DNA of 64,000 nucleotides, from positions 1-64,000 of the forward strand of contig NZ_JAENIJ010000005.1 in the NCBI RefSeq assembly GCF_016595435.1. Direction: 5' to 3'. Source of the DNA: Luteolibacter pohnpeiensis (GTDB lineage Bacteria > Verrucomicrobiota > Verrucomicrobiia > Verrucomicrobiales > Akkermansiaceae). The notes beneath the pieces are model-generated. The model was not told the DNA's origin. It ran no database searches and saw nothing but the letters and a program-made list of their open reading frames with translations. The position numbers and the translations under genes were made by a program. Positions 34,544 through 39,459 of this stretch are shown here, in pieces (position 1 is the first letter of the stretch; the number at the start of each line of letters is the position of its first letter).

Positions 34544-35128
34544 TCAGTTGAATCCGAGCGATGGGAGAAGCACTTGGCGGACCCGATCCCAATCCACCGG
34601 CGCTCCCGGAAGACCGCGCAGGGTGACAAGAACAGGCTCTTCTCCACTGTGGCCGAGCGTCGCCCGGCGGGCACTGGTTTTCAGCCAGTAATCCATCGGA
34701 GAAGTGAACTGCGTTTTGCCATCGTCGAAAAACCAGAGCGACTCCGAGGTTTGGGAACCTTTGATCAGGGAAACCCATGAAGCTTCGCCCGAAGAAGTTT
34801 TGAGGGTGGCCTGTTCATGGATTTTCCATCCGGCCCCTGAGAAGCAATAACTGGGATCGTGCACCGCGTGCCGGTTGTTGCTGCCGTCGATCACACTCAG
34901 GATCAGATTGGCACCACCTTTCATGCTCACCAGGTATTGAGCGGCTTCGGCTTTGCCGAGGAATTCCTGATCCGCTTTGCTGAGCTTCAGTGGTTCAGTT
35001 AGAAATCCAGGTCCTGATGCTGGGATGCTCGTCAGCCGAGCTCCCGCACCCGGGAATGGGATCATCGGCCAAATGATGGACACGATGAGGGTGAATATCA
35101 GTGCTCCCCAGAGGATTTTGCGTTTCAT
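34544..35128 (-). CDS. Exosortase-associated EpsI-like protein
   Basis: The 194-residue product has one N-terminal membrane helix (ILWGALIFTLIVSIIW) and a periplasmic domain with HDPSYCFSGAGWKIHEQ. This matches the His-x-Pro...Cys...GW signature of EpsI/DUF3485 proteins, which accompany exosortases; Cys95 is the conserved Cys. The ATG at 35128 overlaps the stop of the preceding membrane protein gene by 4 bp, so it is preferred to an upstream frame extension to 35287. It is the last gene of the exosortase cassette. Confidence 0.85.
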   Translation of the reverse strand: MKRKILWGALIFTLIVSIIWPMIPFPGAGARLTSIPASGPGFLTEPLKLSKADQEFLGKAEAAQYLVSMKGGANLILSVIDGSNNRHAVHDPSYCFSGAGWKIHEQATLKTSSGEASWVSLIKGSQTSESLWFFDDGKTQFTSPMDYWLKTSARRATLGHSGEEPVLVTLRGLPGAPVDWDRVRQVLLPSLGFN

Positions 35129-35649
35129 GCCTTCAAAATTCCACGGTTCAACCAGTCCAAATGAGGTTTGGCGAGGCCTAAGCCAATGGCAAACACCGCA
35201 AACGCGAGTGCCAGGCCAGGGCGTTCCCAACCGGAAAAGCCTCCCGCTTTCCAGGTGCTGACAAAATATCCGGTGGCGGGCAGCCAAACAGCGGAGGCAA
35301 TGACCACAAACACGCCCATCATCCTGAGCCCCAGGAATCCCGGCACGGCACAGGCGAGAGATAGATGATAAAACACGTTCAGCTCACTCAGGCCTGCGAT
35401 CGCAAAAAATCCGAGAGATGCCGCAACCCAGAAAAAGCGCCCGCGCAAGCCGACTCGCCGCGAGAGGAAGGCCAAACCGATCTGGGTGGCGGTCCAGATG
35501 GCAAAAGCGATCATTCCTCCACGCGAGTAGAGGTCATTGTTCCAGGCCGCCGTTAACGTCGGGAAGGCTTTCCAGATCGTCACCAGCAAAACGGCGAACG
35601 GCAGCAATAAGCCGATGCCTCCAGTGGATGGACGGGAAAAGAATTTCAT
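35125..35649 (-). CDS. Membrane protein of the exosortase cassette, resembles exosortase N-terminal half
   Basis: The 174-residue protein has four or five hydrophobic helices. A segment at residues 36-65 reads WNNDLYSRGG followed by a helix and SRRVGL, similar to the W...D.YSHG...RR region near the N-terminus of many exosortases. No Cys, Arg, His catalytic triad is present. It is coupled by 4-bp overlaps to the exosortase upstream and the EpsI-like gene downstream, so it probably works with them. The likeness to an exosortase N-terminus is by eye and weak; it may simply be an unnamed membrane partner. Confidence 0.7.
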   Translation of the reverse strand: MKFFSRPSTGGIGLLLPFAVLLVTIWKAFPTLTAAWNNDLYSRGGMIAFAIWTATQIGLAFLSRRVGLRGRFFWVAASLGFFAIAGLSELNVFYHLSLACAVPGFLGLRMMGVFVVIASAVWLPATGYFVSTWKAGGFSGWERPGLALAFAVFAIGLGLAKPHLDWLNRGILKA

Positions 35650-36470
35650 GTGGCAGATACGACCCGGCGGCTTGCGGTTCGTTTGGGTTCAAGTAAGCGG
35701 CAGATGCCCTTGGTCATGGCAAGCACTGCGAAGAGAATCACCAAGCCCGTCAAGCCATGAACCGTTCCGGCTGCAAGATCGACGTCAAATGACAGGGCGA
35801 TTGCTGTTAGAATGAGGATTCTTAGGAAATTTGCAACCCAGGCGAGAATGGGCAGGAACAAAAGCAAGCCGTAGAATCGCCGCGCGGCGCGGATTTCGTA
35901 AGCGCCCATCACAACCCCGGCGAGTAATGTCAGCTGCAGAAGATTCCAGCCCGCACAAGCGGCCTCGATATCGACGGGGACATTCATCACCCGCAGATGC
36001 GTGCCTTCCCGGACGACCGGCATGGCAAGCAGCTTGAAAAAGCCTTCCGCCAATTCCGCGGAGGTGAGGCGAAACAGCCAACCGATTTGTGGCCATTCGA
36101 GAACCAACCACGGGAAGGAAAACAACAATACCAGAGACAACCTTCCACGGCGTTCTTCTGGAGCAAACGCCCATGTCGCCCAGACGACACAGACGGCCGT
36201 CCAGCCGACGGTTAGAGCCGTGATGCTGCCGACTACCCAGCCGATGAGCCAAACCAGCACACCTGCAACGCCGAGTTTCTTCAGATGATGGGAAACCGGC
36301 GATGTCTCGATTTTCCAGGGGCCTCCCAGAAACCAAGCGAGGGGAACGCCGACCGCGAGTGGAACCATGTCCGAAGCTTCGTGGATCCAACTGGTATCAC
36401 GGAGCCAGATGCCGATTGCCGCGAGGATGAGCAGCAATCCGCAGAGCCAGACTTTTGTGGGACGGCTCAT
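35646..36470 (-). CDS. Exosortase (transmembrane cysteine protease family)
   Basis: The 274-residue protein is a polytopic membrane protein with the exosortase/archaeosortase triad: Cys172 in EAACAGWNLLQL, Arg217 in ANFLRILIL and His238 in GTVHGLTG. Exosortases recognise PEP-CTERM tails and are thought to cleave and transfer them during export to the cell surface. The subtype (XrtA, C, and others) cannot be set by eye. It overlaps the TPR gene and the 174-residue protein gene by 4 bp each. A PEP-CTERM protein is encoded at the head of the same run. Confidence 0.92.
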   Translation of the reverse strand: MSRPTKVWLCGLLLILAAIGIWLRDTSWIHEASDMVPLAVGVPLAWFLGGPWKIETSPVSHHLKKLGVAGVLVWLIGWVVGSITALTVGWTAVCVVWATWAFAPEERRGRLSLVLLFSFPWLVLEWPQIGWLFRLTSAELAEGFFKLLAMPVVREGTHLRVMNVPVDIEAACAGWNLLQLTLLAGVVMGAYEIRAARRFYGLLLFLPILAWVANFLRILILTAIALSFDVDLAAGTVHGLTGLVILFAVLAMTKGICRLLEPKRTASRRVVSAT

Positions 36471-38434: not shown

Positions 38435-38472
38435 GGGTGACTTCTAGTTGATTCGGTGAAGGGAAGGCAAGT

Positions 38473-39459
38473 TCAGGCGTGCTTGCGGCGGCGGAAGAAG
38501 CCCAATGCGCAGCAGCTGAGGAGAGCGCCGGCGGCGAGTGATGGCTCAGGAGCTCCGAGACCTGCCAAGTTGGCAACGTTTACTTTGCCGATTTGAACTG
38601 CGAACACGGCGTCATTGTAATCTTGGTCTCCGCCACCCATCAAGTCTTCAAAGCCGATAATCAAGTAAGCCGAACCATCTGCCGCGATCGTGATCGCGTG
38701 AACGATGCCGTCTGCGTTGAGGCTTTGTTGAGTGGAGAAGAAGTCGGTGCCGCCGTTCGCGCCATTGGCGATCAGGAAGAAATCCAACGCGGTTCCCGCA
38801 GTGAAAGTTCCCAGATCGACGAAATCTCCAGCGACCAAAGGCTCACTGGAGGTGCGGACGTCGGTGCCGGAGCTGGAGACATTCGGGAAGATGAGTTGGG
38901 CATCTTCGCTGAGGGGGCTGCCACCGGTGGTGGAGTAGCCGAGGGTGTTGGCATAACCAGCGCCTTCGCCGAGGAAGTAAACCCGGACGGTGGCATCTTC
39001 AGTGAGGACCAGATTTGCCGGGTCGATCGCGATTGCAGAAGCATCACCGACGGAGGTGGACTCTGAAAGGTTCTGGTTGATCAACTCCAACATTCCAGGG
39101 AGGACGTTGGCTTGGAAATCTGCGGAAGCGGCGTCAGAACCTGCGACTTGCACCGGTGCGGCGATGTCGAGGTTGTAAGGGCGGGCAGCGGATTGAACTT
39201 CGCTATCTTGAGAGGTGGTGGTATCGGCGGCCGATTCAGTGCCGGTAGAGGCAGCGCTGTCAGATTCGGTGGATTTTTCAGCGTCGTCGTCGGAACTGTT
39301 GCCGTTGTTGCCGTTGTTGCCGTTGTTGGTTTTATCGGCTTTGCGTTCGGCGTTTGCAGCTTGGGCGTTAAGCGAATTGGAATTCGGATTGTCAGTCGCA
39401 GCGAGTGAGGATGCGAGAGTGAGTGCGGTGAAGCAGGCGATGAGTGGTCTTGGGGTCAC
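38473..39459 (-). CDS. PEP-CTERM sorting-signal protein with DUF4114 domain
   Basis: The 328-residue protein has an N-terminal signal peptide (LIACFTALTLASSLAA), a low-complexity Asn/Gly then Asp/Ser/Thr-rich linker (about 30-90), and a DUF4114-type motif GFEDLMGGGDQDYNDAVF. It ends in a sorting tail: APEPS (303-307), a hydrophobic helix, and RRRKHA at the C-terminus. That tripartite end is the PEP-CTERM pattern read by exosortases. The start codon is GTG. It is encoded directly upstream of the exosortase genes on the same strand and is the obvious candidate substrate. Confidence 0.9.
   Translation of the reverse strand: MTPRPLIACFTALTLASSLAATDNPNSNSLNAQAANAERKADKTNNGNNGNNGNSSDDDAEKSTESDSAASTGTESAADTTTSQDSEVQSAARPYNLDIAAPVQVAGSDAASADFQANVLPGMLELINQNLSESTSVGDASAIAIDPANLVLTEDATVRVYFLGEGAGYANTLGYSTTGGSPLSEDAQLIFPNVSSSGTDVRTSSEPLVAGDFVDLGTFTAGTALDFFLIANGANGGTDFFSTQQSLNADGIVHAITIAADGSAYLIIGFEDLMGGGDQDYNDAVFAVQIGKVNVANLAGLGAPEPSLAAGALLSCCALGFFRRRKHA
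39301..39327 (-). repeat. Three tandem 9-bp repeats in the PEP-CTERM gene
   Basis: The unit GCCGTTGTT occurs three times without a gap and encodes Asn-Asn-Gly repeats in the linker. Such an in-frame 9-bp repeat could change in copy number and alter linker length without breaking the frame. Confidence 0.8.

Follow-up and report, generated by a model that had tools for sequence, protein, structure and literature searches.

PEP-CTERM/exosortase systems of the XrtA (EpsH) type include PrsT, PrsK and PrsR, with a kinase, a sigma-54 regulator and a tetratricopeptide repeat (TPR) protein, going by an excerpt of their description (PMC1569441). The concept of a dedicated sorting system was defined for rhombosortase, as far as part of the source extends (PMC3237569). 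Here we describe a five-gene exosortase cassette in the first 64,000 nucleotides of contig NZ_JAENIJ010000005.1 of Luteolibacter pohnpeiensis (RefSeq assembly GCF_016595435.1; Verrucomicrobiota, Akkermansiaceae), a stretch that we call the window. A single-target exosortase, XrtE/VPEID-CTERM, was reportedly presented by Haft in 2012. When several exosortases and dozens of near-identical PEP-CTERM tails share a cell, we know of no answer to how enzyme is assigned to protein, and none was found in the literature searched.

The cassette is best read as a variant of the known dedicated sorting systems, for one lectin-like family. From sequence comparison, it is probably a sorting machine additional to the general one and dedicated to a single family of exported DUF4114 proteins. 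We hold this because the exosortase is of a distinct lineage, co-occurs with DUF4114 and usually adjoins a DUF4114 gene; because it is naturally fused to two of its partners in one locus, and a different exosortase-EpsI fusion adjoins TPR and DUF4114/PEP genes in two further genomes; and because cassette genomes have a second exosortase, the tail profile matches their DUF4114-family proteins alone, and the residue before PEP is shifted in the window's genome.

Like XrtA systems, the cassette has a Cys/Arg/His exosortase, an EpsI relative and a TPR protein, with a kinase or sigma-54 regulator in the loci of relatives and exopolysaccharide (EPS) genes nearby in distant ones. Unlike them, its exosortase reaches 45 of the 208 bits of the XrtA cut-off and its TPR protein misses that of PrsT, and it has an extra small membrane protein, an operon-encoded single substrate family and another residue before PEP. 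With the rhombosortase and XrtE systems it shares the joint encoding of enzyme and target, and its presence next to another sorting system in the same cell; it differs in serving one family of one to four paralogues, in its subtype, and in its separate EpsI and small membrane partners. Its EpsI-like protein best matches the C-terminal domains of XrtN and XrtO, but the cassette scores far under the cut-offs of these families (250 and 200) and keeps the genes separate, except in locus L186 and in genomes G290 and G393. No published description of the cassette was found in the literature searched, with most subscription papers outside its scope.

Gene order, exosortase lineage and co-occurrence

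All five genes lie on the minus strand between 39459 and 34544, and all five frames are intact. The predicted substrate, a DUF4114/PEP-CTERM protein of 328 amino acids with a GTG start (38473..39459), has a signal-peptide-like start, a variable linker, a lectin-like domain and a PEP-CTERM tail. After a gap of 38 bp come genes for a TPR protein with a single N-terminal membrane segment (36467..38434; 655 amino acids, GTG start; TPR_19 40.3 bits), the exosortase (35646..36470; 274 amino acids), a small membrane protein with five hydrophobic segments by hydropathy (35125..35649; 174 amino acids) and an EpsI-like protein (34544..35128; 194 amino acids from ATG, a longer reading from TTG giving an open reading frame of 247). 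Three 4-bp overlaps (ATGA) join the last four genes. The five genes stand where the original prediction placed them, and it had noted the 4-bp overlaps.

The exosortase belongs to the superfamily (PF09721 77.2 bits, cut-off 25.7; TIGR04178 38.3 bits, cut-off 23) and falls short of the older subfamily model TIGR02602 (56.7 bits, cut-off 105.55). The catalytic residues named in the original prediction are present, namely Cys172 (codon 35955..35957), Arg217 (35820-35822) and His238 (35757-35759), all on the minus strand, and they are invariant in the 12/12 aligned cassette exosortases. When the enzyme was searched against the Xrt subtypes, a check proposed earlier, it passed the general TIGR04178 model and reached the cut-off of no named subtype (NCBIfam XrtA, B, C, D, K, N, Q, T, V, W, Z and others). 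The 15 subtype-level models that matched at E up to 1 were below their own cut-offs or had the general TIGR04178 signature alone above, and the same was true of a Chlamydiota orthologue. We place the enzyme in an unnamed subfamily on these scores and on its position in a tree of 69 exosortases, where 23 cassette-type enzymes, including two from Chlamydiota, stand on one side of a branch and 46 others opposite (support 84/98, present in 82% of bootstrap trees; the program warns of long branches meeting at the join, and the support is under its starred level). The tree supports the cassette exosortase as a lineage apart from the other exosortase of the genome. That genome (4.67 Mb in 254 contigs, 98.84% complete) has two exosortases by PF09721, of which the one outside the cassette, on contig C22, has the higher score (156 bits) and adjoins an EpsI-like gene. 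Similarly, 12/12 cassette genomes among 79 relatives have a second exosortase match, and no plasmid-borne copy of the cassette was matched.

In the 79 genomes compared, 49 of them from the same genus including the window's own, an orthologous exosortase occurs in 9/49 genus genomes (49-57% identity, own excluded) and in 3/30 others (34-38%). Three further named Verrucomicrobiota metagenome-assembled genomes (MAGs), two Chlamydiota MAGs, and six strong matches among 387 scanned genomes of the phylum, a scan that scored the best candidates of each genome alone, bring the total to 23 loci. The counts leave out L108, from a further genome close to L107 and having DUF4114, TPR and EpsI, as well as L093-L094, L096-L101, L105 and L107, which by their length are the same contigs as counted loci; the cassette of G028 is split over two contigs, L051 and L197. 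A TPR gene is present in 22/23 loci (all except L056), the small-protein gene in 22/23 (undetected in L185 and broken into two frames in L057) and the EpsI gene in 23/23 (truncated in L050, where the contig ends). In 18/23, the window's included, the TPR gene has a DUF4114 gene immediately beside it. The order that the original prediction proposed to look for in related genomes is conserved over several families. The two Chlamydiota MAGs (loci L103 and L104; genomes G079 and G080) have the four-gene core without an adjoining substrate. In G290 and G393 (loci L214 and L215), the different exosortase-EpsI fusion has a TPR gene on one side and two genes for DUF4114 proteins with PEP-type tails on the other.

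The presence of the exosortase in 9/49 genus genomes is patchy, as would be seen if an inherited or horizontally gained locus were being lost and no longer worked. Such ordinary decay is highly improbable given the five intact frames, the invariant catalytic triad and the three translational overlaps that have been kept, as well as the conserved order and 49-57% identity within the genus.

The exosortase and the DUF4114 family also occur together. Among the 79 genomes, 11 have both, one the exosortase alone (G050), one DUF4114 alone (G063, a weak partial match of 50.7 bits) and 66 neither. Among the 387 genomes there are ten exosortase matches at E<=1e-15, seven strong (163 bits or more) and three near 60 bits, and the DUF4114 family is found in 10/387; all seven strong exosortase genomes have both (7/10 counting weak matches). 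The three matches near 60 bits were dropped from the counts, and the tree puts them outside the cassette group. DUF4114 occurs without a strong exosortase match in three genomes, namely G290 and G393, which have the other exosortase-EpsI fusion, and G436, whose DUF4114 protein is without a PEP tail. Fisher tests that ignore kinship gave 1.6e-11 for the 79 genomes and 4.9e-13 for the 387 (strong matches only).

The predicted substrate family and its sorting tail

The substrate matches DUF4114 (PF13448) with 52 bits (cut-off 27). Its C-terminal sorting tail, APEPSLAAGALLSCCALGFFRRRKHA (38476..38553, minus strand), was read from the sequence; the PEP motif, preceded by Ala, the hydrophobic stretch and the basic end can all be made out directly. 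A search of the whole genome for such tails, one of the checks proposed earlier, gave 65 matches to TIGR02595 at E<=10, 52 of them above the cut-off. The original prediction had named many PEP-CTERM proteins with no second exosortase as the case that would count against it, and because a second exosortase is present this case does not apply. Among the 52 is a remote DUF4114 paralogue on contig C180 (17.5 bits, cut-off 16). Given that its tail is of the same type as that of the window's substrate, the term "one substrate" is too strict, and the sorter would serve a family. Two candidate substrates are found in the window's genome, four in G031, and three each in G047 and G019. In the strict sense of a single target per genome the system is not a dedicated one, with two candidate targets in the window's genome; of the one-substrate machine originally proposed, the association with one substrate family stands and the single substrate does not.

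A profile made from seven tails of the genus and run on the 79 genomes had 18 matches at E<=1e-8, all of them DUF4114-family proteins of cassette genomes. The accepted matches score at least 38.2 bits and the next match in any genome 26.7 bits. In the window's genome, the window's substrate scores 59.5 bits, the second DUF4114 protein 47.6 and a third protein 16.5.

The tails differ in the residue before PEP. The window's genome has 63 other PEP-CTERM matches, of which 61 were readable (one of the two dropped reads PEA and the other is not a tail), and these have 33 Val, 27 Ile, 1 Leu (in a 23-amino-acid frame at a contig) and 0 Ala, that is, Val or Ile in 60/61, a preference that the TIGR02595 model may itself favour. 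Both DUF4114 tails (2/2) have Ala, and the profile of the seven genus tails, an Ala-PEP profile, also found no further Ala-PEP protein in this genome. In other cassette genomes, the general tails read likewise have Val or Ile, in 18/18 from G081, G082 and G083 (the top six in each genome, out of 52, 34 and 58 matches) and in 8/8 from G002, G019 and G031. The 29 DUF4114 tails of Verrucomicrobiota with the cassette-type enzyme have 22 Ala, 3 Thr, 3 Asn and 1 Val. In Chlamydiota, Val or Ile precedes PEP in 12/12 tails read (that of L136 by eye), among them the tails of three DUF4114-like G080 proteins, which score 21.9-26.0 bits against the cut-off of 27 and whose best match to the family profile is 1.8e-15. 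The five tails of the f44 type, from G290 and G393, have Val. As a separate observation, the DUF4114 tails of these two genomes read LVPEPEE or similar, without a clear basic end, and the protein upstream of the exosortase-EpsI fusion has 961-963 amino acids, with TPR in L214.

We tentatively suggest, as a possibility that we do not favour strongly, that the residue before PEP acts as a selectivity code. In a cell with two exosortases, Ala, Thr or Asn on the lectin family and Val or Ile on general substrates might insulate the two sorting lines, and where the enzyme is alone, as in Chlamydiota, Val or Ile would be used. Given that the residue has changed independently only a few times, the code is a lead and not proof.

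Alternatively, the cassette exosortase could be a spare, with both enzymes processing DUF4114 and other PEP-CTERM proteins. The tripartite tail is indeed near ordinary PEP-CTERM tails, with a mean identity of 39% between the window's tail and 30 others. In the Chlamydiota MAGs the cassette-type enzyme is the sole exosortase match found, yet there are 9 and 6 PEP-CTERM matches above the cut-off, mostly not DUF4114, and the enzyme type is thus not intrinsically single-target. We nevertheless regard such redundancy as unlikely, given the tight co-occurrence with one substrate family and the shifted residue before PEP where two exosortases coexist.

Several observations weigh against a dedicated sorter. 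The tail of the window's substrate scores 14.8 bits against TIGR02595, under the cut-off of 16. The cassette substrates share ancestry along their full length, and the likeness of their tails may reflect descent rather than a code. No DUF4114 gene adjoins the module in G031, G050, G390, G079 and G080; the family is elsewhere in the genome in G031, G390 and G080, and no match to it was found in G050 and G079. The exosortase of G050 is also without a TPR neighbour, and the three exosortase matches near 60 bits sit in genomes without DUF4114 matches. With respect to the code, one remote DUF4114 paralogue of G019 carries Val-PEP, and in G254 an Ala-PEP protein outside the DUF4114 family adjoins another exosortase.

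Partner proteins and the proposed lectin-like cargo

The match of the partners to named families is a weak point: the EpsI-like and TPR proteins stay under the cut-offs of their nearest ones. The TPR protein scores 38.9 bits against PrsT (TIGR02917; cut-off 312.2) and falls outside that family. The EpsI-like protein reaches 17.6 bits against DUF3485 (cut-off 26.1), TIGR02914 is not listed for it, and among NCBIfam models it comes closest to the C-terminal parts of XrtO (29.3 bits) and XrtN (28.8 bits); its 18 orthologues have 17 invariant columns, including the region of a D-P-x-Y/F-C motif, and the fused relative in G290 passes DUF3485 (49.5 bits). For the small membrane protein, Pfam gave no match and NCBIfam none better than E 0.2. 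The predicted model of this protein is helical, with a predicted local distance difference test score (pLDDT) of 82.8, and has no match in the PDB at E<=0.001. In L186 the exosortase, small protein and EpsI domains form a single open reading frame of 663 amino acids, with the small part in the middle. Because these parts are one polypeptide there, we propose that the three separate proteins of the cassette may form a single membrane complex.

The DUF4114 domain, as modelled, resembles calcium-dependent LecB-type lectins. With a model of the substrate (mean pLDDT 64.8), the seven best Foldseek matches were all LecB-type lectins (E 0.012-0.072). In a structure alignment of residues 143-293 (38581..39033, minus strand), the 17 best rows were LecB-type lectins or thrombocorticin, with Z of 6.3-8.0 and 3.9 for the next row, although Z below 8 can reflect a common arrangement and in this respect speaks against the lectin assignment. 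A conserved D-x-D-x-N-D stretch, which we take to be the calcium site of LecB-type lectins, lies within this region. Unlike LecB/BclA-type lectins, to which it is otherwise alike in the alignment and in this motif, the substrate is a predicted membrane-anchored precursor with a sorting tail, and no PDB sequence match to the DUF4114 family was found at E<=10. For Myxococcus xanthus PilY1.1, it has been argued in the portions cited that DUF4114 binds calcium and EPS (PMC9109919, PMC13190605). The distance of the LecB-type rows from the next one and this argument on PilY1.1 (PMC9109919) speak for a lectin-like cargo.

In the mechanism that we propose, the DUF4114 substrate would leave the cytoplasm by the Sec pathway, its C-terminal helix keeping it in the inner membrane; we infer every step that follows export. 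The exosortase, small membrane protein and EpsI-like protein would act as one membrane complex, and the TPR protein may scaffold this complex or hold the substrate. The exosortase would cut near the Ala-Pro-Glu-Pro motif and pass the protein to the outer surface, where the calcium-dependent lectin-like domain may bind glycan, possibly exopolysaccharide of the same cell. With Ala (elsewhere Thr or Asn) ahead of PEP, the substrate may escape the general exosortase, which presumably handles proteins with Val or Ile at this position.

Surroundings, regulation and significance

Exosortase genes are usually in or beside EPS genes, according to part of one study (PMC1569441). EPS-type genes (glycosyltransferase, flippase, Wzy-like, sugar-transferase or Wza-like) are beside the module in L184, L187, L188, L189, L104 and L052, and L106 has a Wzz match under the cut-off nearby. 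The scan of three proteins flanking the cassette in the window identified them as an AI-2E permease with a GAF domain, a LemA protein and an M48 peptidase. The absence of EPS genes noted in the original prediction is thus a local feature that does not extend to those six loci. The adjoining EPS genes could mean that the module belongs to exopolysaccharide assembly and that the DUF4114 protein is co-regulated with it without being a special substrate. We consider this quite improbable, since in the window and several relatives the cassette is away from EPS genes and keeps its substrate, and scattered DUF4114 paralogues retain the special tail.

The permease gene (32089-34458), in which an AI-2E-type permease is fused to a weak B12-binding-like stretch and a GAF domain, lies on the same strand 85 bp beyond the EpsI-like gene and is possibly read together with the cassette. 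Of the eight other genus loci, five have a same-strand gene for a PAS/GAF protein next after EpsI; it is a full hybrid histidine kinase in L052, L053, L054 and L055 and is truncated by the contig end in L051. L048 and L049 have no PAS/GAF gene after EpsI, and in L050 the contig ends there. Loci L188 and L189 have sigma-54 activators after EpsI, and L056 has one in divergent orientation. The latter was rejected as PrsR (287 of 502.6 bits) and, because it scores 290 bits for ntrC, is described only as NtrC-like. A sigma-54 promoter before the cassette was also rejected, as none of the 19 upstream stretches scored reached 9 of 10.

A perfect 12-bp palindrome, ACGTGATCACGT (39510..39521), about 50 bp before the substrate start, is a putative operator. 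With up to one mismatch allowed, it has no other match in the window, where 0.11 were expected, and it was not found in the upstream stretches of relatives that were read. A site of the form GCCCNNGGTCC(A/C)AT occurs six times in the whole 1.36 Mb of locus sequence (overlapping loci included, a repeated place being counted a single time), always a short way ahead of a DUF4114 cassette gene. These sites lie on the minus strand of L050 (4667), L053 (12327, 11041 and 10008), L054 (9921) and L115 (1412); the site is absent before the window's own substrate gene.

Two Chlamydiota MAGs carry the exosortase module (L103 and L104), and no paper on PEP-CTERM sorting in Chlamydiota was found in the literature searched. 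L104 carries the DUF1347 family, which is presumably chlamydial.

The host is related to Akkermansia, and the cassette provides a compact system for asking how exosortases choose their cargo. It combines a distinct enzyme lineage, a small substrate family and a one-residue difference in the tag, with Chlamydiota as a natural control. The natural fusion ties the small membrane protein and EpsI to the enzyme, the TPR protein is named as a further partner, and a calcium-dependent lectin is suggested as the cargo.

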